From contig JAAEOP010000712.1 in assembly GCA_024223125.1 (NCBI GenBank), positions 1 through 12,625 of the forward strand: a stretch of 12,625 nt of DNA. The letters are read 5' to 3'. Numbering within the stretch: the first letter of the stretch is position 1; every line of letters starts with the position of its first letter. A model generated the notes under the pieces. It was not told where the DNA came from. It did no database searches and saw only the letters and a program-made list of their open reading frames with translations. The translations under genes and the position numbers were made by a program. Source of the DNA: Chloroflexota bacterium. GTDB taxonomy: Bacteria > Chloroflexota > Anaerolineae > Promineifilales > Promineifilaceae. Below are positions 433 to 12,465 of this stretch, piece by piece.

Positions 433-2139
433 ATGCCAAACCACACCAAACGCACCGACTTTAAAAATGAATTAGCCCGCCTCAAACAGGCTCGTGATAA
501 CGGCGACATCACCGAGCAGAAATATTACGACCAAAGCGGCTATCTGCGCTTTGACGACGAAACCGGCGGCCAAACCTGGTGGCTGGACCCGGAAAGCGAG
601 AAATGGTACGTCGCCCCGCTTGGTTCTGAGGATTTTGTGCCGTATCAGCCAGAGCCGCTCGCCCCCGAACCGGAACCCGCGCCGCCGCCAGAGCCGGAAC
701 CACCCGCTCCCGAACCGAAAACCACGCCGTCGCCAGAATCGGAGCTTGAACCAGTCGCCCCCGAATTGCAAACCACGCCGCCACCGGAATCAGAGCCGGA
801 ACCGTCTACTCCCAAACCGGAACCCGCACCACCGCCGAAACCGGAATCACCCACCCCTGAACCGCAACCCGCACCAGGGCCAAAACCACCCGCTCCCGAA
901 CCAGAACCCGCGCCGCCGGAACACTCAAATCAAACTAGAGTACTGCTCATTGGTGCAGCAGCAATAATTATCATAGCCGTTGTATGTGGTGGATTCTGGA
1001 TATATTCATTGCTTGACAGCAGCGACCCCACCCCAACGCAATCCCAGGTTGCCGCAATCACAAATACCCCGACCCCTGAACCGGATACGCCAACGCCTGT
1101 GCCGCCGCCAACCAAACAATCTTCACCCACCACAACACCACCCAACACGCCCACGACAGAAGCCACCCAACCACCTACTCCTCAACCGTCTACTCTGGAA
1201 CCAACAGCGGAACCCTCTCCCACCTCTGAACAACCCACTCAGGAACCATTGCCAACAGCTACCCCTTCACCGCTGCCTCCGGTTACAAATACACCCATAC
1301 CTACCCCGGAACCTGTTTTTAGCGGCAAATTCGCCTACCCTGAATTCGATGAGAAAAACGATACTTTCAACGTTAAGGTGGTAGAACTGCCAACTAAACA
1401 AGAAATTACAACAATTCCCAATGCCAGTCAACCGGCCCTGAGTTCGGACAGCGCTCAGTTGGCCTACATATCATGGGCCAACGACAATATCGGTTTGTAT
1501 AGCATTTCATTGGCGAATGGTGTGCAGAATCCCGTCAGCAAAATGTTAGAAGCTTACCGTCCGCAATGGGGCTTTGTTGACAACCAAGCAAAGGTTGTTT
1601 TTGAATTTATCAAAGGCGAACAAAAAGAGATACATTTTAGTGATGCCCCCGGAAGCGGCGTACCCGATATACAAAAAGGGCAAACCCCCGCCTGGACGCC
1701 CGATGGTCGCTTAGTGCTACAGGCTTGTCAGATAACCGAGTGCGGGCTGGCCGTGGTCAATACAAACGGTACAGGCTTTGAATTTATAACCCACAACACC
1801 GCAGATATTGCTCCTACCGTTTCACCCGACGGGCAGTGGGTGGCCTATACCGCCAATAGTAACATTTGGCTGGTCAGCCTCAAGGGAGGAACACCAACCC
1901 AATTAACCGACTCTCCCGGACGGGACGGCATCCCAACCTGGTCTCCCAATGGCAAGTGGATTGCCTTTGCCTCGGAAGATAATATGGGACAATGGACTAT
2001 CCAGGTGATACGCTCTAATGGAACAGGCCAACAAAAACTATTAGACGTTGCCGGCAATCTGGATAGCAAAACCTGTATAAATAAATGTCGTGAATCTGGC
2101 CCCGGTTGGCTGCACGAGAGTATTAGTTGGTCTAAATAA
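433..2139 (+). CDS. Single-pass membrane protein: SHOCT-like head, Pro-rich linkers, TolB-like propeller
   Basis: The 568-residue product is probably a membrane-anchored sensor or scaffold. Residues 10-35 (LARLKQARDNGDITEQKYYD) resemble the short SHOCT module, followed by a Trp-rich patch at 49-60. Residues 73-163 are a PEPEP-type linker made of about six 13-17 residue units. Residues 169-194 form one hydrophobic helix, and 195-295 are a T/P-rich stalk. The rest (298-568) shows PD40/TolB-type blades such as PTVSPDGQWVAYT and PTWSPNGKWIAFAS. There is no signal peptide. A cytoplasmic N-terminus and an outside propeller are inferred, not shown. The RBS GAGGGA (422-427) lies 5 nt before the ATG. 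The C-terminal 70 residues clearly resemble those of the protein at 7417. No enzymatic motif was seen. The partner is probably the TIR-CHAT protein encoded downstream. Confidence 0.85.
   Translation: MPNHTKRTDFKNELARLKQARDNGDITEQKYYDQSGYLRFDDETGGQTWWLDPESEKWYVAPLGSEDFVPYQPEPLAPEPEPAPPPEPEPPAPEPKTTPSPESELEPVAPELQTTPPPESEPEPSTPKPEPAPPPKPESPTPEPQPAPGPKPPAPEPEPAPPEHSNQTRVLLIGAAAIIIIAVVCGGFWIYSLLDSSDPTPTQSQVAAITNTPTPEPDTPTPVPPPTKQSSPTTTPPNTPTTEATQPPTPQPSTLEPTAEPSPTSEQPTQEPLPTATPSPLPPVTNTPIPTPEPVFSGKFAYPEFDEKNDTFNVKVVELPTKQEITTIPNASQPALSSDSAQLAYISWANDNIGLYSISLANGVQNPVSKMLEAYRPQWGFVDNQAKVVFEFIKGEQKEIHFSDAPGSGVPDIQKGQTPAWTPDGRLVLQACQITECGLAVVNTNGTGFEFITHNTADIAPTVSPDGQWVAYTANSNIWLVSLKGGTPTQLTDSPGRDGIPTWSPNGKWIAFASEDNMGQWTIQVIRSNGTGQQKLLDVAGNLDSKTCINKCRESGPGWLHESISWSK
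664..918 (+). repeat. Degenerate in-gene repeats coding PEPEPAPPP-type linker
   Basis: About six imperfect units of 39-51 nt encode variants of PEPEPAPPPEPEP within the 433 gene (residues 78-162). They form the extended linker between the N-terminal head and the membrane helix. Units differ in sequence (for example TTPSPES and TTPPPES), so the array is old rather than a recent expansion. Confidence 0.75.
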
Positions 2140-2141
2140 AC

Positions 2142-2205
2142 TGCTACAAAAAACGTGTTTCAAACACGTTTCTACAGCATACGCAACACGTTCTTAACGT
2201 GTTTT
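2142..2205. promoter_or_regulatory. Two ACGTGTT-type hairpins between the 433 gene and the TIR-CHAT gene
   Basis: Hairpin 1 is a perfect 10-bp inverted repeat (2151-2160 with 2162-2171) with TGCT/AGCA outside it (2142-2145 and 2176-2179). Hairpin 2 is AACACGTT (2185-2192), loop CTT, AACGTGTT (2196-2203), followed by two more Ts. The core ACGTGTT or its complement occurs four times. Roles could be transcription termination, mRNA processing or a dispersed repeat. The T run is short for a terminator. Confidence 0.7.
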
Positions 2206-2215
2206 CAATGTTAGA

Positions 2216-2233
2216 CCGTGAATTCATTCACGG
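2216..2233. promoter_or_regulatory. Third hairpin in the TIR-CHAT 5' leader
   Basis: CCGTGAAT (2216-2223) and ATTCACGG (2226-2233) form a perfect 8-bp inverted repeat. It covers a GTG at 2218 that would extend the downstream reading frame by 17 codons, which argues against that GTG as the start. It lies 35 nt before the chosen ATG and could affect mRNA stability or bind a dimeric regulator. Confidence 0.6.
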
Positions 2234-2268
2234 GATACGGCAAACAAATACAGACAAGGGGGAAACAG

Positions 2269-5200
2269 ATGACGCAACCGACTGTTTTCATTAGCTACAG
2301 CCACAAAGATGAAAAAGAAAAAAACATTCTCCTTACATACCTGAATAGCTTAAAAGCTCGTGGTGTAAAGATTTGGAGCGATGACCAGATTAAGGCAGGG
2401 GCCAACACAGAGGAAAGTATTAGTCAGGCTATTAAGCAGGCTAAAATGGCCATCTTACTCATTACAGCCGACTACCTTGCTTCTGATAATATAGATAGAC
2501 AAACATCTGCTTTGAAAGAACGTTACAAAAAAGATAACCTGGCTATTATTCCAATTATTGCAAAACATTGTCCTTGGAACCAATACGAGTGGCTTGCTTC
2601 AATGAAGGTTCTTCCCAGAAGTAAACAACCTGTCTGGCGAGATAGCGGTGAATATGTCAATGAAGAACTGACAGCCATTGTTAATGAAGTAGCAGATATA
2701 CTTGGTTTTAAAAAACCTTCACCCCCTCCTGATGACATTCCTACCCAACAACCCCGGCAGTCAACTATTTCTTCTCCAACCTTTGAAATCAAAATCGCCC
2801 GTCACGGCCCTGTGATGTACAAAGCAGAAATTGATTCTCCAGCGGGAGAAGCAACCGCCACCTTCAAATTACCTCTTGATAAGCAGACCATTGATACTAC
2901 TCTGGCAGAATTTCGTACTAATTTAAAAAATACACGCCGATTGTCTCACGATCAGTCATTTACACCCAAAGATGCCAAAGCGCTTACCCCGGAGCATCTA
3001 GGGTCAACCCTCTTTCAAAATATATTTCAAGACAAAGTGATGGGATTGTACAAAGAGAGCCGGCGGCAGGCCAAACGAGCGCGTAAGCCTCTATCCATCA
3101 TTCTCAATATTGATCCCAAAGCGGGCGATTTGATTAATTTACCCTGGGAATTTTTGTGCGATACTTCTGACCAACGTTTCCGAGGACATTTCTTAGCCTT
3201 TGGGCAGGATACGCCTATCATTCGCCGCTGGCTTAAAGCCGAGAAGGTTGAATTTTCCTATGATCCACCTCTCCGCGTTTTGTTGATTTCCGCTACTCCT
3301 GAAGAAAGCGGGCCTTTGAATGTGCCACGTGAGTACCGCCTTATCCGGGATCAATTGACCGTCTTAAATCGAGGCAACCAGGCCAAAGTCAGAATAGATT
3401 ATCAACCGGCTGCAACCTTAAATGACTTAAAGAAAATTGTGCGTGATCCCAGAAGAACGCCCCATATTTTCCACTTTATGGGACATGGTGGATTGGGCAG
3501 CCTGTTGATGGAAGATGAATTAGGCGGTCAGAAAAGCGTTTCAGAGCAAAGCCTGTCAATTATTCTCAGAAACGCCCCCTCATTAAGGTTAGTTGTGCTA
3601 AATGCTTGCGAAACCACTCAAGCTGATTTTTTAGAAGAGCAATTGGGTGTTGCTCAAAGTCTAGCCGATGCCGATGTCCCGGCTATTGTAGCCATGCAAT
3701 TTGCTATTTCAGATAAGGCGGCTCTGGTTTTTGCCAAAGATTTTTACCAAGTAATTGCCGAAGGCGCCTCAATAGACACGGCTGTAACCTGGGGACGAAT
3801 TGCGATTCAAACCGAGTTCGAGGAATCGGCCACCAAAGAATGGGGAACGCCGGTACTCTATCTGCAATCGCCGGATGGACACATTTTTACCGACTTGCTC
3901 GGCGAGCAGCCCAAACATCAAAAGAAAACACCAGAGGAGGATGTTGAGGAAGCGGCTGATATTTCAGAGCAAGGTAAAGAACAACCGCAAACCTCCAAAA
4001 CAGAACAGATGCGTCGTGAAGCAGCTGAAAAAGCAGCCGAAATCGAACACCTGCAGCAATTACGCCAAGAAAAAAAGAGGAGATTACAGGAACGGGAAAT
4101 CCAAAAAGCCAAATATGGCATTGATACATCACCTCATATCACTCTTGAGATTGCAGACATTCGCCAGGAGATAGACGAAATTGAACAGAAGCTAATAGCT
4201 CTGGAACCGGAAATCCCCCTTCATGATACAACACCGGTGCCGGTTACAACCCGCCCAGTTAGTGTGCAAGGCATAGATGACAGTAAAGCCTTCGATGTTA
4301 GCAAAACAGATGACTCGGGGGTTCACTCAGAAGGATTTAAGCTTTATACTCAAGGACGGGCTGCTTTGGAGAAAGAGGAATGGGGGCAGGCTTTGGGTTA
4401 TCTAAGCCGGGCTCAAAAGCTGGCCTCCGGCTTACCGGATATTGATAACTTTGTCACCCAAGCCCGCCAACAGTGGCGGCAAACGGTTGAGGGCCAGAGC
4501 GAAGATGCCTCTCTTGAGGTACTCTATAGCCAGACGCAGCAATATTTAGCTCAATCTGATCCGGATCTGGAAAAAGTTGCCTTGCTTCTGGAACGAATCG
4601 TTCGCTCTGATGCCGGTTTCAAGGACGACGTTTATGATTTGGCCCTTGAAACGCGAACCCGGGCCGAGAAAGAAAAAGCCGAACGGGAGAAACAGGCCAA
4701 ACTAGAAATGTTGTATGCCCAGGCTCAAGTCCATCGCCAGGAGGAAAACTGGTCAGAAGCGGTTGACAGCTTGACTCAAATCATTGACATAGACGACGCC
4801 TATTTAGACGCCCAACCACTTTTACACGAAGCTACCAAACAGCGGGATTTGTTGAATTCTTATCAGCAAGGAAAGACGCATTTTAAAAAGAAGGATTGGG
4901 CCAAGTCCGTGGCGGCCTTTGGCAAGGTAGCTTCAATTGATCCGGATTATCACGACGCGGCTAAACTTTTACGACTGAGCCGCCACCAGAAGCAACTGGA
5001 TACCTGGATAAAAGAGGCTGAGGATTATCTGGAGGCGAAGGAGTGGGAGGCGGCCATCGAGGTCTTAGAGGAGAACCGGATAGTCGCAGAACGGACGGAG
5101 GCCGGAATACCCTTGAATTACGCCTATGCCCAACGTTCCCGGTTACAGCGCGACTGGGGCCAGGCCGTTGAATACTTAAAGGCGGTAATTGAAGACAGGC

Positions 5201-7395
5201 CCAACTACCGGCCTGATTTAAACACCCTCTACGAGCAAGTCAATGAAGAGCGTCGCTTGCAACAGCAGTTTGAAAAAGCCACGGCCCATATCGAGCAAAA
5301 TGAATGGGCCACGGCCAAGGCGACTTTGGAAAGTATTGTCCAAACCAGACCCGACTACCCGCTGGCTCAAGATCGCTTGCAAGAGGTCAATGAGGAGATC
5401 CGGCTGGCCGGCCTTTATAAAAAGGCGTTGGATTTAATTGAGTTAAAACAATGGGCCAAGGCCATTCCTCACCTGCAGCAGATTCCAGATTATGAAGATG
5501 CCCGGACTTTATTGAAAGAGGCCCAAAAACAGGTTGAATTAGATGCTTTCTATAAAGACGGTCTGGAAGCAGCCGGTCAGGGCCACTGGCAAGAAGCGGT
5601 AACGGCCTTTGAACGGGTGGATGAGATTGATCCTGGCTATCGGGAAACCCAACATCAGTTAGAAACGGCCCGCAATAAAATCATCTTGCAACAATCTTAT
5701 GATAAGGGAATGGCAGCCCTAGAAGCTGGTCGGCAAGCGCACAACTTGGCCCAGCTGGATGAAGCGGTTGGTTGGCTGGACACGGCTGTTGAAATTGACC
5801 GGCGTTTTCGAGGTGCGGAAAACCGTCTCCGTGAAGCCAAACGAGAGCGATCATTGTTGTGGCATTATCGGCAAGGAGAGGGCGCTTTTCAAAACGAGCA
5901 GTGGGCTGAAGCTATTAACCATTGGCAAGTCATTGTCAAAGATGAGAACGAGCCTGGCTATCACGGCGACAGCGCCCGCCGCCTGGCCGAGGCCGAACGC
6001 CAGCAACGTCTGGCCAATTCATATATCGAAGCCTATCGCCACTTCAAGGCAGAGGAGTGGGACAACGCCATCATTTTACTGGAGCAATTGCAGCAAGAAA
6101 CGCCCGGAGAAAATTACAAAGACACGGCCAAACTGCGAACCGAGGCCAAGATACAACAACAACTGTTCCAACATTATCATCAGGCCGAACAAATGATGAC
6201 CGCAGAGCAATGGGATAAAGCCATTCAACATTTGCAGCAGATTCAGGCTGCTCGCGCTGAATATCGCCAGGTTGAAGTGGAGCGGATGCTGGCCGAAGCC
6301 CAAACCAACCATAACGCTGCCGGCAATTATCAAACCGGACTGAAGGCGCTGGAAGCAGAAAGGTGGGCAGAGGCCGTAACCGCTTTTGATCGGGCCTTTA
6401 ACCTCAAAACCGACTTTCGAGACGTGGAGACCCGCCTGAATCAGGCCCGGCAGCAGCAAACCCTGCACCGGCATTATCAAGCGGCGATGGGGGCTATGGC
6501 TAATGAGGCATGGGATGAGGCTATCGAGCGCCTGGTCGCCATTCAAGGACTCGACCCCGACTTTAAAGACGCCCGCCGGCAGTTGGAAGAAGCGGAATGT
6601 CAACGTCAACTGGCCGTCGATTATCAAGCTGCTCTGGCCCACATCGAGGCCGAACGCTGGGCCGAAGCCCGGACCGCGTTTGATAACATTCTGGCCCGCC
6701 AAAAAGATTACAAAAAATCCCAAGCTCACCGGGACCAAGCCCAAACGCATCTGGATATGGCGGGCAGGTATGAACGGGCTGAGAAAAAGATCGAACTGGC
6801 CGGGGAACAGCCGGAACATTGGCAATCCGTCGTTGAGTTGTTAACGACCGTTGTCGAGTGGCAGGCCGACTACCGGGAGGATGCCCAGGTTTTGCTGGCC
6901 GAAGCTCAACAGCAGGCCGAACTGCACCTGCTTTATCAGCGGGCTACGGTTCTGGGTCTCAAAAACGACATTTTAGGATTAGAACAGGCCATTGACCTTC
7001 TGGCCCAAATCATCCAAATTGATCTCGACTACAGAGACGCCGTCTCGCTCAAGGCAGAGTGCGAGGATAAATTAAATCAAAAGAAAGAAGAAGAACGAAG
7101 GGCAAAAGTAAAAGTGTTGCATGACTTGGCTGTTAACAGCGCCCGCAAAGGAGATTTTACTCAGGTGTTTTCATGTCTGGAACAAATTACATTGTTGGAC
7201 AAGCAGTATAAGACAGTACAGAACCAAGTTACAGAACTCATTCAACAATGTCAAGCAAAATTTCAACAGGGTCAGCAACTTAAAGCACAAGGGGAAAAAT
7301 ATAAGGCGCTTGCCATACTCAAAGAATACAATCAAGAAATAGCACAGCTTCCTGTCCAGCTTCAAACAATTCTGAGTCAAAATTTACCCAATTAG
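2269..7395 (+). CDS. TIR-CHAT caspase-like protease with about 20 TPR-like repeats
   Basis: This is a 1708-residue cytosolic multidomain protein. The ATG at 2269 is preferred because AAGGGGG (2256-2262) lies 6 nt upstream and the TIR domain begins at once (TVFISYSHKDE, residues 5-15). The order is TIR (4-145), linker, CHAT clan-CD protease (about 240-543), charged coiled coil (558-648, with the block AKYGIDTSPHITLEI at 614-628), and helical repeats from 687 to near the C-terminus. The CHAT dyad is intact: His406 in HFMGHGG (codon 3484-3486) and Cys447 in LNACET (3607-3609). In the TIR domain the usual acidic NADase residue appears as Gln78/Thr79. CHAT proteins are known effectors in bacterial immunity and cell death, such as Csx29 and gasdermin-cleaving proteases. 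No NTPase switch and no membrane segment were seen. Its substrate is unknown. It is probably co-transcribed with the gene 21 nt downstream. Confidence 0.9.
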   Translation: MTQPTVFISYSHKDEKEKNILLTYLNSLKARGVKIWSDDQIKAGANTEESISQAIKQAKMAILLITADYLASDNIDRQTSALKERYKKDNLAIIPIIAKHCPWNQYEWLASMKVLPRSKQPVWRDSGEYVNEELTAIVNEVADILGFKKPSPPPDDIPTQQPRQSTISSPTFEIKIARHGPVMYKAEIDSPAGEATATFKLPLDKQTIDTTLAEFRTNLKNTRRLSHDQSFTPKDAKALTPEHLGSTLFQNIFQDKVMGLYKESRRQAKRARKPLSIILNIDPKAGDLINLPWEFLCDTSDQRFRGHFLAFGQDTPIIRRWLKAEKVEFSYDPPLRVLLISATPEESGPLNVPREYRLIRDQLTVLNRGNQAKVRIDYQPAATLNDLKKIVRDPRRTPHIFHFMGHGGLGSLLMEDELGGQKSVSEQSLSIILRNAPSLRLVVLNACETTQADFLEEQLGVAQSLADADVPAIVAMQFAISDKAALVFAKDFYQVIAEGASIDTAVTWGRIAIQTEFEESATKEWGTPVLYLQSPDGHIFTDLLGEQPKHQKKTPEEDVEEAADISEQGKEQPQTSKTEQMRREAAEKAAEIEHLQQLRQEKKRRLQEREIQKAKYGIDTSPHITLEIADIRQEIDEIEQKLIALEPEIPLHDTTPVPVTTRPVSVQGIDDSKAFDVSKTDDSGVHSEGFKLYTQGRAALEKEEWGQALGYLSRAQKLASGLPDIDNFVTQARQQWRQTVEGQSEDASLEVLYSQTQQYLAQSDPDLEKVALLLERIVRSDAGFKDDVYDLALETRTRAEKEKAEREKQAKLEMLYAQAQVHRQEENWSEAVDSLTQIIDIDDAYLDAQPLLHEATKQRDLLNSYQQGKTHFKKKDWAKSVAAFGKVASIDPDYHDAAKLLRLSRHQKQLDTWIKEAEDYLEAKEWEAAIEVLEENRIVAERTEAGIPLNYAYAQRSRLQRDWGQAVEYLKAVIEDRPNYRPDLNTLYEQVNEERRLQQQFEKATAHIEQNEWATAKATLESIVQTRPDYPLAQDRLQEVNEEIRLAGLYKKALDLIELKQWAKAIPHLQQIPDYEDARTLLKEAQKQVELDAFYKDGLEAAGQGHWQEAVTAFERVDEIDPGYRETQHQLETARNKIILQQSYDKGMAALEAGRQAHNLAQLDEAVGWLDTAVEIDRRFRGAENRLREAKRERSLLWHYRQGEGAFQNEQWAEAINHWQVIVKDENEPGYHGDSARRLAEAERQQRLANSYIEAYRHFKAEEWDNAIILLEQLQQETPGENYKDTAKLRTEAKIQQQLFQHYHQAEQMMTAEQWDKAIQHLQQIQAARAEYRQVEVERMLAEAQTNHNAAGNYQTGLKALEAERWAEAVTAFDRAFNLKTDFRDVETRLNQARQQQTLHRHYQAAMGAMANEAWDEAIERLVAIQGLDPDFKDARRQLEEAECQRQLAVDYQAALAHIEAERWAEARTAFDNILARQKDYKKSQAHRDQAQTHLDMAGRYERAEKKIELAGEQPEHWQSVVELLTTVVEWQADYREDAQVLLAEAQQQAELHLLYQRATVLGLKNDILGLEQAIDLLAQIIQIDLDYRDAVSLKAECEDKLNQKKEEERRAKVKVLHDLAVNSARKGDFTQVFSCLEQITLLDKQYKTVQNQVTELIQQCQAKFQQGQQLKAQGEKYKALAILKEYNQEIAQLPVQLQTILSQNLPN
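4327..7330 (+). repeat. Array of about 20 TPR-like repeats (protein level)
   Basis: Repeats of about 45-50 residues share the pattern L..Y..G......A..W.EAI..L..I...DPDY.DA...L.EA..Q. The Trp after an acidic or basic residue (EEW, DW, QW, RW) and the closing Tyr-x-x-Ala/Asp mark the units. I count 20 by eye. The first two and the last four are degenerate, and several carry insertions (near 5700-5770 and 6780-6830). Such arrays form superhelical protein-binding surfaces. Confidence 0.85.
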
Positions 7396-7416
7396 AGAAT
7401 AAGGGATCAACACAAA

Positions 7417-9258
7417 ATGGAGACACAAATTTCTATACCGACACCAAGTGCCGATGAGGAAATCAAGGAGCTTCTTTATGAAACCGGCAAAGACGCTCTG
7501 CATGATGGAAACCTTAAAGAAGCAATTACGCAATTTGAAGAATTGTTAGAGCTAGATGGTCAGTACCGTGACACGCGTTTGCTTTTACAGCAAGCCCAAG
7601 CTCAAGCCCTGTATAAAGTGGGCAAAGCAGCTTTTGAGCAAGGTCATTGGGCAGAAGCAATCAAACAATTTGAATCGCTTCTGCACCTGGAAGCCAATTA
7701 TTCTAACACCCGTTCTTTATTACAGCAGGCTAAAATACGTAAGTTGTTGACTGAAAAGGGCTTGATATTTGCTGCTGCCGGCATTGTTATTGTATTGGGT
7801 TTATGTGGGGTCATCGGTATTACAGGGGGCTGGTTCGCCTTCTCTGCTGATGATACGCCAACCCCAACCGAAACTCAAATCGCTGGGGTTACGGATATCC
7901 CTGCTACCTCGGAGCCGGATACACCATCTCCCACAACTGAATCCACCAGTGAACCCACTGTTGAGTCTACTCAAGAACCTACTCAGGAACCCACAACCGA
8001 ACCTACCGGAGAGATCACACAAGAACCTACTCAGGAACCCACTACTGAGCCCACTGCTGAGTCTACTCAGGAACCCGCTGCTCAACCTACTCAAGAATCC
8101 CCCGCTTCTCCGACCAATTTTCAGGTTTCCGAGACCACAGACACCGGTCTTACCCTTAATTGGACCAATCCCACCAACAACTACACGCAGATCATTTTGC
8201 AGCAAGATGGCGCCGTCATTGCTGAATTGCCGCCGGAAAGCCGAAGTTATACTATAGATGGCTTGACTTGTGGCCAGGCATTAAACTTCTCTATCATCAC
8301 CCTCAATGATGCAGGGCAGTCTGAACCGACTCAACTTAGAGCCCAAACGGCTGATTGTTCGGTCTCATCTCCACCCGCATCACCACCCACAGGTAAAATC
8401 GCTGTGCCCGTCTACCAAAACGGAATGTACAACATCTACCTGGCCGAAGCTAAAAATAACTGGACGTCAAAACTGCTCTTTAAACGGGCCAGTCAACCCA
8501 CCTTTTCTAATGATGGTCAAAGTATGGTTATCCATTCCTGGGTTGACAAAGACCGAGGCAAAGAACTAATCTACTTCTCAGATTTTACTAACGCTGCCAT
8601 CTTCCAAAAAATAACTAATCGCATAGAAAATGCTCATCCCAGTTTTAACCAACAGGGTAATGAGATTGTCTATCACAGCCGGCAGGAAGGCATAAATAGA
8701 GATGCCATTCTTATCAGAATGAACCTCAGTTCAGACCTTACAGATGCATCACAGATAAAGTTACCGGGAGAAGGAACTAACCCTGATTGGCTGGGAGAAA
8801 ACATCATTTTTTACAAATCCTTCCCTGATGCCGGACTTTATATTATTGATCAAAATGGTGGGGGTAATAATAAACCAATCCTAAAAACAGGCAAAACTGT
8901 ACCCGCCGCTGCGCCGGATGGTGACACTGTTGCCATTTCTATGAAACGAGACGGTGGGAACAACCACTGGCAAGTGTTTACCTTTTCTGCAAGCCAAGGA
9001 GAAGGCAGCTTGGTCCAACTTACCTCAACGGACAATTCAGACAATTATCTTCCCACCTGGTCGCCTGATGGTCAGCACATTGCGTTCGCTTCAAATCGAG
9101 AAGGGGTGTGGGCCGTATGGGTGATGAATGCCGACGGCACAAATCAGCGCAAGCTGTTTGACCTTCCCGGTTCCGTTGACGGGATCATATCAGACGTAAA
9201 TGTCGATCCATCCCTCTCCTTTGGCTGGTTCGAGGAACGGATGGCCTGGGCGCCGTAA
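7417..9258 (+). CDS. Membrane protein: TPR-like repeats, TM helix, fibronectin III domain, TolB-like propeller
   Basis: The 613-residue product begins with two TPR-like repeats (residues 17-105) of the same type as in the TIR-CHAT protein (GKAAFEQGHWAEAIKQFESL). The basic stretch KIRKLLTEK precedes one membrane helix (115-142), which by the positive-inside rule puts the repeats in the cytoplasm. A T/E/P stalk (146-230) follows, then a fibronectin type III domain (about 231-312) and a TolB/PD40 propeller (326-613; for example PTWSPDGQHIAFAS and VMNADGTNQRKL). The C-terminus is paralogous to that of the 433 product. The RBS AAGGGA (7401-7406) lies 10 nt before the ATG. The gap of 21 nt after the TIR-CHAT stop suggests one transcript and a shared task. 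I infer a transmembrane sensor that recruits the TIR-CHAT protein through its repeats. The ligand is unknown. No clear terminator follows. Confidence 0.87.
   Translation: METQISIPTPSADEEIKELLYETGKDALHDGNLKEAITQFEELLELDGQYRDTRLLLQQAQAQALYKVGKAAFEQGHWAEAIKQFESLLHLEANYSNTRSLLQQAKIRKLLTEKGLIFAAAGIVIVLGLCGVIGITGGWFAFSADDTPTPTETQIAGVTDIPATSEPDTPSPTTESTSEPTVESTQEPTQEPTTEPTGEITQEPTQEPTTEPTAESTQEPAAQPTQESPASPTNFQVSETTDTGLTLNWTNPTNNYTQIILQQDGAVIAELPPESRSYTIDGLTCGQALNFSIITLNDAGQSEPTQLRAQTADCSVSSPPASPPTGKIAVPVYQNGMYNIYLAEAKNNWTSKLLFKRASQPTFSNDGQSMVIHSWVDKDRGKELIYFSDFTNAAIFQKITNRIENAHPSFNQQGNEIVYHSRQEGINRDAILIRMNLSSDLTDASQIKLPGEGTNPDWLGENIIFYKSFPDAGLYIIDQNGGGNNKPILKTGKTVPAAAPDGDTVAISMKRDGGNNHWQVFTFSASQGEGSLVQLTSTDNSDNYLPTWSPDGQHIAFASNREGVWAVWVMNADGTNQRKLFDLPGSVDGIISDVNVDPSLSFGWFEERMAWAP
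7942..8103 (+). repeat. In-gene tandem repeats coding the T/E/P stalk
   Basis: Imperfect 12-nt units (ACTCAGGAACCC-like) encode TQEPTQEPTTEPT in the stalk. An exact 23-nt copy pair occurs at 7972-7994 and 8020-8042, 48 nt apart, pointing to a fairly recent duplication and possible length variation between strains. Confidence 0.8.
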
Positions 9259-9767: not shown

Positions 9768-9790
9768 GCGGCCTTTTTCCGACAGGCCGC
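9768..9790 (-). terminator. Hairpin just after the transporter stop codon
   Basis: GCGGCCT (9768-9774) and AGGCCGC (9784-9790) form a 7-bp GC-rich stem with a 9-nt loop. Its right arm touches the stop codon (9790-9792) of the minus-strand gene. On that strand it is followed by GTTAGT rather than a T run, so it is at best a weak intrinsic terminator or a 3' stabilising hairpin. Confidence 0.5.
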
Positions 9791-12465
9791 TAGGGAACAT
9801 ACGGAGCGGTGAGAATATCCAACGGCCATACTACCTCGAAGTTGCCGTCTTGAATTTGCAGTACCTGAGTGCGAACCCCATTTTGTCGCTCAAACTCATC
9901 GTAACTGGCAAACTTAACCGGCCCAAACGGGGTATCCATAACGGTGTTGTTCAACGCCGTGCGGATGTCTGCCGGGCTAAAGGACTCGGCGCGGACCAGG
10001 GCGTCGGCGGCTACCAGCAATGCGGAGTAAGCTTCGGCTCCGTGGTAGTCGGGAATGGCCGAGTAGGTTTCTACGTATTGGTCATAATATTCCTGCGCGC
10101 CGGAGTAAGGGAGCTGGCTGGACCACAGGCTGGCCGTCGTCAAACCGTTGGCCGCTTCGCCGGCAGCGGTCACAAAGTCAGGGTGGGCAAAGCCAAACGC
10201 GCCGCCACTGAAATCCGACTCAATCCCCAACTCGCGGATGGTCTGCACCAAGACGATGCTGTCGGACAGCGAGGCGATCATGTAGATGATGTCCGGTGGG
10301 CTTTCGGCCAGCGGCGATAACGTGGCGCGCAGTTGGGACGGGACGGAACCGGGATCATATTGGATCAACGTGCTCGACTCGATCCCGTTATTTCCCAGAA
10401 ACTCTAGCATGCTGGTCGCGCCGTCAATGCCTAAAATCGTACTTTCGTGGACGATGGCTACGCTTTTGGGCCGGACTTCTTTTTGCCACAAATCTTCCAG
10501 GCTGGTGGTATACTCGCTCACGGGCGGGCTGAGCCGGTACACATTCCGCCAACCGGCCTGGGTAATGCGGTCGGCGGCGGCGGTAGAGATCAGAAACGGC
10601 AGATCGCGGATGTTGGATTCGCTGGACATGGCGTAGGTGGGGTCGCTTCTAAAACCGCCTACCAGCATTACGGCTTTAGCATTTACGGCTAAATCCTCGA
10701 CCAATGCTCTGGCGTTGTCCGGGTTTTCTTCATTGTCGCCGTACACCAGCAGCACCGGCCGGCCATTAATGCCGCCCTCTGCGTTAATTCTTTCTGCGGC
10801 CATGGCAAACGAGTTTTTCATCATCAGCGCGGTTTCTGAAGAGTTACCGGAAAGCGGCAGTGGTACGCCGATAACCACCGGCGGCTGGTCGTCAGATGTG
10901 GGGGCGATGGTTTCCGGCTCCGGTTCGGCGGGGGTAAGTTTGGCCCATTCCGGCTGCACACCCGGTGTAATATCGAACACAATGGTGCCCCACAGGAAAA
11001 ATATACCGGTGACCAGGACTATACCAATAAAGTTGAGAAAAAGGCCGGCCCTAACCATTTCACCAATCCTCACCCGCTCACTGCCAAACACAATGGCGTT
11101 GGGCGGCGTGGCCACGGGCATCATAAAGGCACACGAGGCCGACAGCGTGGCTGGGATCATCAACAGCAGCGGGTTTTCACCAATTGCAACTGCCAGCGAA
11201 CCTAAAATCGGCAAAATCATTTGTGTGGTCGCCGTATTAGACGTTAATTCAGTCATAAAGGTCATCGACAGGTTGATCATACCAACCATAACCAGCGGTG
11301 AAAAAACGGCTAATCCGGCCAACTGGCCGCCCAAATAATCGGCCAGCCCGCTCACCTGAAAACCTTTAGCCAGGGCAAACCCGCCGCCAAACAAGATAAT
11401 CACCGCCCAGGGCAGGCTTCTGAAGACGGTTACATCAACAAGGGTAGAGCTTTTGGACCGGGCCTCCGGGCTGCGGGTGGGGATAAAAAAGAGCAGCATG
11501 GCCATGATCATGGCCACCGTGCCGTCATCCACGCTGATGTCGCCCAACAAGTTTGACCAGCCAGGAATGGTGAACCCGCCCAAGGTGATATCTTTTCTAA
11601 AAACCCACAGTAAGGCGGTGATGATAAAAACGGTCAGCACTACTCTTTCTTCAAAACTGGTTTTCCCCAGTTCTTTGTACTCCTGCTTAACGATCTCTCG
11701 ATCAACTTTTAAATGCGCCGCCGGCCGATAGAGAACTTTGGTCAACACCAGCCAGGTAACCAGGATCATAGCCAGCGACAAAGGCAGCGCCATAATGAAC
11801 CAGTTGCCGAAGGAAACCCCCGGCCCTTCCGGAAAGCTCAGTTCGAACACCCGCTGAAAGACCAGGTTGGGCGGGGTGCCGACCAGGGTTGCCATCCCCC
11901 CCATTGAAGCGGCATAGGCAATGCCCAACATCAGCGCCACGGAAAACTTGTGCGAGTCACTTTTTCCAAACTCCTCTTCCATTTTCAGGATAATCGACAA
12001 GCCTACCGGCAGCATCATGACCGTTGTAGCCGTGTTAGATATCCACATTGAAAGAAAAGCCGAGGCGGCCATAAATCCCATCACCAGCCGGGCCGGGCCG
12101 CCGCCCACCGTGCGAATGACCAACAGCGCAATCCGTTTATGCAGGTTCCATTTTTCCATAGCCAGAGCAATGATAAAACCACCGATGAACAGAAAGATTG
12201 TGCTGTTAAAATAAAGTGGGGCCGTAGCCTTGGGCGTCATAATGCCCAGCAGCGGGAACAGAACAATGGGCAACATCGATGTAGCTGCCAGTGGAATGGC
12301 CTCCGTTACCCACCAGACGGCCATCAGCACGGCTACGGCGGCCATGCTGGTAACCAGCGGCACTTCCGGGTCAAGATTTAGCGATAATGTTGCAAAAAAC
12401 AGGATCGGCCCTAATACTAATCCAACAAGTTGTACTGTGCTTCGGCTTTGAACTGTGGCGGTCAT
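9790..12465 (-). CDS. SLC13/DASS transporter fused to a LivJ/LivK-type solute-binding domain
   Basis: This 891-residue protein has two complete modules. Residues 1-500 are a divalent anion:Na+ symporter-type permease with many membrane helices and both family signatures: SNTATT at 143-148 with GTPPN at 196-200, and SNTATT at 409-414 with ATPPN at 452-456. These build the Na+ and carboxylate sites in the known family. A P/E/T-rich linker (about 505-530) leads to residues 530-891, a type 1 periplasmic binding fold (Peripla_BP_6), with VVIGVPLPLSG, RINAEGGINGRPV and DNEENPDNA. The DASS C-terminus lies outside the cell, so the binding domain would face outward. Its own signal peptide is absent, as expected for a fusion. 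The likely substrate is a carboxylate or amino acid, not determinable here. AGAGGAGA (12471-12478) lies 5 nt before the ATG. The gene stands alone, convergent to the TIR-CHAT locus. Confidence 0.92.
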   Translation of the reverse strand: MTATVQSRSTVQLVGLVLGPILFFATLSLNLDPEVPLVTSMAAVAVLMAVWWVTEAIPLAATSMLPIVLFPLLGIMTPKATAPLYFNSTIFLFIGGFIIALAMEKWNLHKRIALLVIRTVGGGPARLVMGFMAASAFLSMWISNTATTVMMLPVGLSIILKMEEEFGKSDSHKFSVALMLGIAYAASMGGMATLVGTPPNLVFQRVFELSFPEGPGVSFGNWFIMALPLSLAMILVTWLVLTKVLYRPAAHLKVDREIVKQEYKELGKTSFEERVVLTVFIITALLWVFRKDITLGGFTIPGWSNLLGDISVDDGTVAMIMAMLLFFIPTRSPEARSKSSTLVDVTVFRSLPWAVIILFGGGFALAKGFQVSGLADYLGGQLAGLAVFSPLVMVGMINLSMTFMTELTSNTATTQMILPILGSLAVAIGENPLLLMIPATLSASCAFMMPVATPPNAIVFGSERVRIGEMVRAGLFLNFIGIVLVTGIFFLWGTIVFDITPGVQPEWAKLTPAEPEPETIAPTSDDQPPVVIGVPLPLSGNSSETALMMKNSFAMAAERINAEGGINGRPVLLVYGDNEENPDNARALVEDLAVNAKAVMLVGGFRSDPTYAMSSESNIRDLPFLISTAAADRITQAGWRNVYRLSPPVSEYTTSLEDLWQKEVRPKSVAIVHESTILGIDGATSMLEFLGNNGIESSTLIQYDPGSVPSQLRATLSPLAESPPDIIYMIASLSDSIVLVQTIRELGIESDFSGGAFGFAHPDFVTAAGEAANGLTTASLWSSQLPYSGAQEYYDQYVETYSAIPDYHGAEAYSALLVAADALVRAESFSPADIRTALNNTVMDTPFGPVKFASYDEFERQNGVRTQVLQIQDGNFEVVWPLDILTAPYVP

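Follow-up and report, generated by a model that had tools for sequence, protein, structure and literature searches.

Does a gene for a TIR-CHAT-repeat protein form a system with the two propeller genes between which it lies, and what would such a system do? This question is raised by a stretch of 12,625 nt from contig JAAEOP010000712.1 of a Chloroflexota bacterium (hereafter the window, meaning the whole of the DNA analysed). Three of its four large genes, A, B and C (Table 1), are called as open reading frames (ORFs) at 433-2139, 2218-7395 and 7417-9258 on the forward strand, and the fourth, for an anion transporter, lies on the reverse strand. A first-pass annotation of the sequence had described a TIR-CHAT-repeat protein between two paralogous single-pass propeller proteins on the same strand, one of them 21 nt downstream, a description with which the ORFs, Pfam matches and hydrophobicity scans agree. 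We found that the trio recurs as a unit in other genomes and that B and C occur elsewhere as a single chain. Based on these sequence comparisons, we see an about even chance that A-B-C is a ligand-gated membrane receptor coupled to a cytosolic caspase-like protease, with an exchangeable adaptor into a conflict network.

Searching contigs with 12 C-like proteins returned 23 loci, two of which (L001 and L002) have a CHAT-TPR gene between two propeller genes, all in the same orientation. The gaps are 13 and 15 nt in L001, where A is truncated at the contig end, and 12 and 5 nt in L002. The other 21 carry a more distant propeller and no CHAT gene in the DNA fetched; several of the 23 loci lie on contigs only 3-5 kb long. 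At a threshold of 1e-35, a propeller match was found in 74 of 396 sampled genomes from the class of the operon-bearing genome G002, and A-B-C is present in all four with the strongest matches (8.7e-213 to 7.9e-92; L001, L002, L084 and L085), with B and C overlapping slightly in L084 and L085. A CHAT-TPR profile recovered the same four from the 396 genomes at E values of 0 to 6e-156, the next match standing at 3.5e-99; both scans scored the two to three best candidates per genome. When 59 relatives of G001 were searched, the two matches were both already among the known ones. L001 matches the CHAT domain, the TPR array and both propellers of the window in the same order, at 51-70% identity. Because the identical order recurs in four other genomes, the trio goes beyond chance, and judged from gene order A-B-C is a conserved operon, tight but rare. 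The first-pass annotation had named two observations that would speak against a system. The three genes failing to co-occur is not what we found, since the trio is present in all four genomes with close relatives. The other, propellers occurring mostly without CHAT or TIR, does apply to the inspected part of the wider family, where CHAT is missing from 21 of 23 loci and from eight of ten propeller loci among 13 regions fetched with long flanks, but not to the close subfamily (trio in 4 of 4). These 23 loci and 13 regions cover part of the 74 propeller genomes, further loci being mostly short-flanked.

The closest tie between protease and propeller comes from P0004-P0007 (2038-2096 aa), in which CHAT, TPRs, one transmembrane helix, fn3 and the same propeller are joined in a single chain. 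Residues 164-1685 of B align to residues 23-1520 of P0004 with 43.5% identity, and residues 35-613 of C align to its residues 1463-2038 with 39%, while the best piece of P0007 covers only residues 225-613 of C. Since these single chains are collinear with B plus C, the two proteins very probably act together as a single receptor-protease. A maximum-likelihood tree of 48 propellers nests the fusions in a C-like clade (17 rows, support 100/96); the A propellers are grouped apart (4 of 5 rows, 98/94), and a third group (10 rows, 100/99) holds most of the propellers linked to kinase, FHA or AAA domains. Several C-like proteins in this tree are placed by propeller sequence with their neighbourhoods unseen. 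Of 120 CHAT proteins listed (window included), 60 have a single strong hydrophobic segment, which in every case comes after the CHAT domain, although some of these segments may be hydrophobic TPR helices and two have fewer than 60 residues beyond them. The CHAT side is the more positive one in 43 of the 60, and seven of nine one-segment proteins scanned have a known domain beyond the helix (SBP_bac_5, kelch, FGE, PD40/SH3 or the Ig-like Big_7). Nine of the 120 carry the propeller type of A and C, the four fusions among them.

The two partners of B have similar layouts. A consists of a small N-terminal region, a Pro/Glu-rich stretch, one transmembrane helix (residues 170-188), a Pro/Thr-rich linker and a C-terminal PD40 propeller (298-567; Pfam 2.5e-16), and in C the N-terminal TPRs are followed by a transmembrane helix (117-135), a Pro/Thr-rich linker, fn3 (231-306; 1.8e-9) and a PD40 propeller (326-613; 1.6e-14). 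Each has one strong hydrophobic segment in Kyte-Doolittle scans with a fixed cut-off, and B has none. The propellers are paralogous, A and C sharing 27% overall identity. By the charge rule, the TPR side is the more positive in all five C proteins, which places the TPRs inside and the propeller outside; by analogy with C, the propeller of A is probably outside as well, in the same orientation. Thus, the outside location claimed for both propellers in the first-pass annotation is backed for C and left undecided for A by the charges. In ten pairwise comparisons, the propeller of C was more conserved than CHAT in seven, equally conserved in one and less conserved in two. Conservation at least as high as that of CHAT in 8 of 10 pairs is evidence against a phage sensor that diversifies rapidly and in favour of a fixed ligand, e.g. 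a wall component. No relative was found in the viral contigs scanned with C. The same propeller ectodomain terminates LysM, Ser/Thr kinase, FHA, zinc-ribbon-TPR and AAA proteins (L003, L007, L008, L009, L018 and L019, from Anaerolineae and other Chloroflexota records), and by its domain company the family is a sensor module common to kinases, FHA, AAA and LysM proteins. The closest named relatives of B and C are likewise Chloroflexota, mostly Anaerolineae.

B matches TIR_2 (8.6e-14), CHAT (3.3e-19) and TPRs in Pfam. Its start is likely the ATG at 2269, which is preceded by GGGGG, with the GTG at 2218 as a possible alternative. Counted from this ATG, the dyad residues are His406 in HFMGHG and Cys447 in LNAC, as the first-pass annotation had numbered them, and neither varies in two alignments, of 13 and 18 sequences, that include the window. 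With its dyad invariant, the CHAT domain of B is probably an active protease.

The TIR domain, by comparison of related operons, is outside the conserved core of the system, being absent from B of all four relatives (L001, L002, L084 and L085). Alignment to the solved AbTIR places Gln78 of B opposite E208, presumably the catalytic Glu. Among 58 aligned TIR matches, this column holds Glu in 50, Gln in four and Thr in one, with three unaligned. Each of the four Gln rows has a Glu no more than two residues away and hence is alignment-dependent. In the window, Asp76 is the sole acidic residue that near, Gln78 and Thr79 both being non-acidic, and the domain is probably not catalytic. Its GC content is low (0.389, with 0.411 for the A-B spacer, versus 0.464 for CHAT and 0.511 for the TPR array), as is its GC at third codon positions (0.34 versus 0.436 in CHAT). 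Given its absence from the operon relatives, the missing Glu at the catalytic column and the low GC at all and at third positions, the TIR is probably a recently gained adaptor. The working TIR effector of the first-pass annotation is therefore the part that did not survive, on the Gln at the Glu position and the absence from the four relatives. A search with the window TIR, limited to proteins whose length is 0.55 to 1.75 times that of B, returned 50 proteins, and none of the 49 others carries CHAT. The domains closest to this TIR belong to proteins of the types TIR-NACHT-FGE, kinase-TIR and TIR-TCAD9. Other proteins also combine TIR with CHAT: TIR follows CHAT in P0015, P0018, P0024 and P0114, flanks it on either side in P0017 and precedes it in L092 and L093 (G004); judged from these architectures, the combination as such is not unique to the window.

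Relatives of B carry another tag at times. The N-terminus of B in L002 is EAD7, which the EAD7 of P0002, searched against 708 ORFs, matches at 1.9e-13 (Pfam alone gives 0.041). P0002, a relative of B known from the protein alone, without a neighbourhood, has EAD7 between CHAT and TPR at 28.9 bits, below the family cut-off of 32. In L084, a TCAD9 gene follows directly after C (4.1e-32). Other proteins of operon-bearing genomes join EAD7 to TCAD9 (G002) or to TIR (G002 and G216) and TCAD9 to TIR (G216), and a second CHAT protein, in G001, is an EAD7-CHAT protein adjoining a PD-(D/E)XK nuclease. According to the available text of two studies (PMC7159879, PMC8195603), EADs serve conflict systems as adaptors, through homotypic interactions. 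For the A-B-C family, association with EAD7, TCAD9 and TIR suggests a role in biological conflict. Two further proteins are of note. One (L043:1501-3303, reverse strand) has the order EAD7, response-regulator receiver, CHAT, its CHAT apparently being under two-component control, and the other (L140:1-3756, reverse strand) is a kinase-TCAD9-TIR-AAA_35 protein in the A-B-C-bearing genome G216.

Several observations weigh against a conflict-linked receptor-protease. The operon is rare, with 4 of 396 genomes in the class and 1 of 400 in a draw from the phylum (a 1e-100 match, G001), and the two flank-bearing loci (L002 and L084) have no effector or substrate gene in common. B of L001, L084 and L085 has neither TIR nor EAD7, which makes the adaptor step dispensable. 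EAD7 is found in three of the four operon genomes, but it is common in the class (52 of 199 genomes) and absent from G020, so that its co-presence alone is weak evidence. For A, the charge rule leaves the orientation undecided (one of four proteins fits and the other three are equal), and the best hydrophobic segment of A in L002 scores 2.18, slightly below the cut-off. The C propellers show no diversification, and that of L085 is placed next to a kinase propeller on a long branch, just beyond the 17-row clade. Lastly, two of the nine scanned one-segment CHAT proteins lack a known domain beyond the helix (P0070 has a known domain before it, and P0043 has none beyond it).

How else might the locus be explained? 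Ordinary envelope signalling, in which a receptor-protease reports the state of the wall or of nutrients and cuts a regulator, as propeller-bearing transmembrane kinases would do by phosphorylation, with no suicide or defence involved, is a possibility we take seriously while thinking it rather improbable. The propeller family shared with Ser/Thr kinases, FHA, AAA and LysM proteins, the conserved propeller of C and the fixed operon order all speak for it, but the EAD7, TCAD9 and TIR modules around the family and the swapping of tags on B suggest conflict systems, and the distribution is patchy. We consider it unlikely that CHAT matures or sheds the surface propellers as part of an assembly or adhesion device for which signalling is not the purpose. 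The long repetitive Pro/Thr and Pro/Glu stalks and the paralogous propellers do resemble surface display; yet CHAT is predicted to be cytosolic and the propeller of C outside, and the fusions put a transmembrane helix between protease and propeller in one chain.

Two further explanations have very little probability left. A TIR NADase suicide protein regulated by CHAT and the propellers, with an output like that of Thoeris, would fit the TIR_2 match, a match to the PADLOC ThsB model (2.4e-19) and the TIR-first CHAT proteins (L092, L093, and also P0017). It is opposed by Gln78-Thr79 in place of Glu, by the lack of a ThsA model match in the window and by the TIR-less operon relatives, and we rejected the NADase effector on Gln78. 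Even less probable is that the genes are chance neighbours or that an assembly artefact joined TIR to CHAT-TPR. The step in GC between TIR with spacer and the rest of B, the finding of this TIR on one contig only within the operon family and its 49 CHAT-less matches would be expected in this case, but the CHAT, TPR array and propellers around the TIR are those of L001 in the same order, and the operon in four other genomes together with the B-C fusions led us to reject a chance neighbourhood. What remains best supported is envelope sensing coupled to proteolysis, because of the conserved unit, the B-C fusions, CHAT inside with the propeller of C outside, and the conflict adaptors on kin. This much of the first-pass proposal is retained, without its TIR part.

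Among described systems, the closest concept is the EACC1-caspase membrane pair. In the available text of Kaur et al. 2020 (PMC7159879), a membrane-spanning partner gene lies beside a caspase-superfamily protease and is proposed as a membrane-associated sensor that activates it, and some members of EACC1 systems have a transmembrane helix and an extracellular periplasmic binding protein (PBP) domain. As far as that text goes, the likeness is a caspase-superfamily protease (CHAT in B) beside membrane partners (transmembrane helices in A and C), whereas in the window the CHAT gene has propeller genes on both sides and also encodes a long TPR array, and in relatives it is fused to the ectodomain. 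No EACC1 was found by Pfam in A or C, and PF19953 matched in none of the four operon genomes in a search whose controls were silent too. Set against the EAD-coupled conflict systems as described in the same partial sources, the family has EAD7 on two relatives of B and TCAD9 and EAD7-TIR proteins in operon genomes, but the window has a TIR and no EAD by Pfam, and the operon is without a MoxR-vWA, VMAP or STAND core. A diversity-generating retroelement target of Thiohalocapsa (PMC10907252, available text) combines CHAT and TIR in one predicted cytoplasmic sensor with a diversified lectin-like domain; CHAT and TIR are in common, while here the sensor would be a conserved outside propeller. The receptor Ser/Thr kinases of related genomes have the same propeller family and single-pass layout, the output being a kinase there and a CHAT protease on a partner chain here.

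Csx29 of the type III-E CRISPR system (Craspase) also has TPR and CHAT in one caspase-like protein. Its domain order is TPR before CHAT, and Craspase also has Cas7-11 and a CRISPR array. Here CHAT comes before TPR, the partners are membrane ectodomain proteins and no cas gene is in the window. The absence of a STAND NTPase or CRISPR gene reported in the first-pass annotation was confirmed for the four large genes (Pfam and PADLOC models), and the window has no CRISPR-like spaced repeat array, its long direct repeats lying only within coding linkers. We ruled out Craspase on the domain order, on the lack of a cas model matching the four genes and on the lack of such an array, and Thoeris on Gln78 at the Glu column of ThsB and on the lack of a ThsA model match among the four genes. 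By Pfam, no SAVED domain was found in B of the window, L002, L084 or L085 (for L085 among the best 25 of 27 matches) or in P0003. The PADLOC SAVED_CHAT model matches B of L001 and L085, and P0004, over about half of its length or less, and does not match B of L002, L084 or the window. Thus, by the sequence features tested, the system is not Thoeris, Craspase or SAVED-CHAT. Among the titles and abstract openings listed from one open-access library, we found no description of a CHAT-propeller or CHAT-ectodomain receptor, which is a weak negative.

Table 1. Coordinates of the A-B-C locus within the window
Feature	Position	Strand	Basis or properties
Gene A, 568 aa	433..2139	+	ORF list, Pfam, hydrophobicity scan; equivalent slot in four related operons
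Gene B, 1708 aa from ATG 2269 (1725 aa from GTG 2218)	2269..7395	+	TIR-CHAT-TPR, without transmembrane helix
Gene C, 613 aa	7417..9258	+	TPRs, transmembrane helix, Pro/Thr-rich linker, fn3, PD40 propeller
A-B spacer	2140..2268	+	Three hairpins at 2150-2235; folding z = -4.4
TIR of B, residues 1-150	2269..2718	+	GC 0.389; Gln78 (codon 2500-2502) at the Glu column
CHAT domain of B, residues 172-545	2782..3903	+	His406 (3484-3486), Cys447 (3607-3609)
TPR-like solenoid of B, residues 690-1700	4336..7368	+	W..A-type motifs, spacing often about 50 residues

The A-B spacer measures 129 nt and the B-C spacer 21 nt. With mechanical ORF starts, the four relatives have 12, 13, 50 and 72 nt between A and B, and the hairpin-bearing spacer of the window is possibly a regulatory or attenuating leader for B. 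At the left edge, positions 1-127 of the forward strand hold the 3' end of a gene like that for transfer-messenger RNA (tmRNA), or of an intron-bearing tRNA gene, truncated by the window start, with the T-arm gtaggttcgaatcctac. Against the Rfam tmRNA family, this RNA with its 5' part cut gives a weak match (7.1 bits, E 0.86), and a strong hairpin with a U-run (128-170) stands directly after its 3' end. A mobile island marked by a repeat of this 3' end was considered and rejected: the 25-nt end occurs once in the window, and scans of L001, L002, L084 and L085 for tRNA, tmRNA and Rfam genes were negative. The fourth gene (9790-12465, reverse strand) combines an anion transporter of the DASS family (residues 39-497) with a Peripla_BP_6 binding-protein domain (529-856) in one protein; at 1e-100 it had no match in 199 genomes of the class, in a search that had no positive control.

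If A-B-C is a receptor-protease, C and probably A would display their propellers outside on the long Pro/Thr linker, and the cytosolic TPRs of C may dock onto the TPR solenoid of B, which would keep CHAT at the membrane. If an outside ligand then bound, or normal wall contact were lost, C and A might cluster or change orientation, and this change would switch on CHAT to cleave a cytosolic target. An exchangeable tag on B, which is TIR in the window and EAD7 in two relatives and is missing from others, could recruit partners by like-with-like binding, the window TIR acting as an adaptor and not as a NADase. With kin in the conflict-system network, a damaging or growth-arresting output is likely. 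Bacterial caspase-like proteases studied so far respond, to our knowledge, mainly to nucleic acids, second messengers and other intracellular signals.

More tentatively, and as a possibility we would not yet favour, the window may represent the TIR-tagged two-chain version of a Chloroflexota 'death receptor' family with a ligand sensor outside, a transmembrane helix, CHAT inside and a TIR or EAD7 tag linking it by like-with-like binding to TCAD9 and further conflict proteins; there are also single-chain versions, with different ectodomains. With a conserved operon and natural fusions tying CHAT to a propeller outside the cell, outside-in signalling by proteolysis would become open to experiment in bacteria, and the exchange of TIR and EAD7 predicts which partners each receptor recruits. 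If true, this would parallel the wiring of animal death receptors and Toll-like receptors, with the sensor outside and a TIR or death-fold-like adaptor and a caspase inside.

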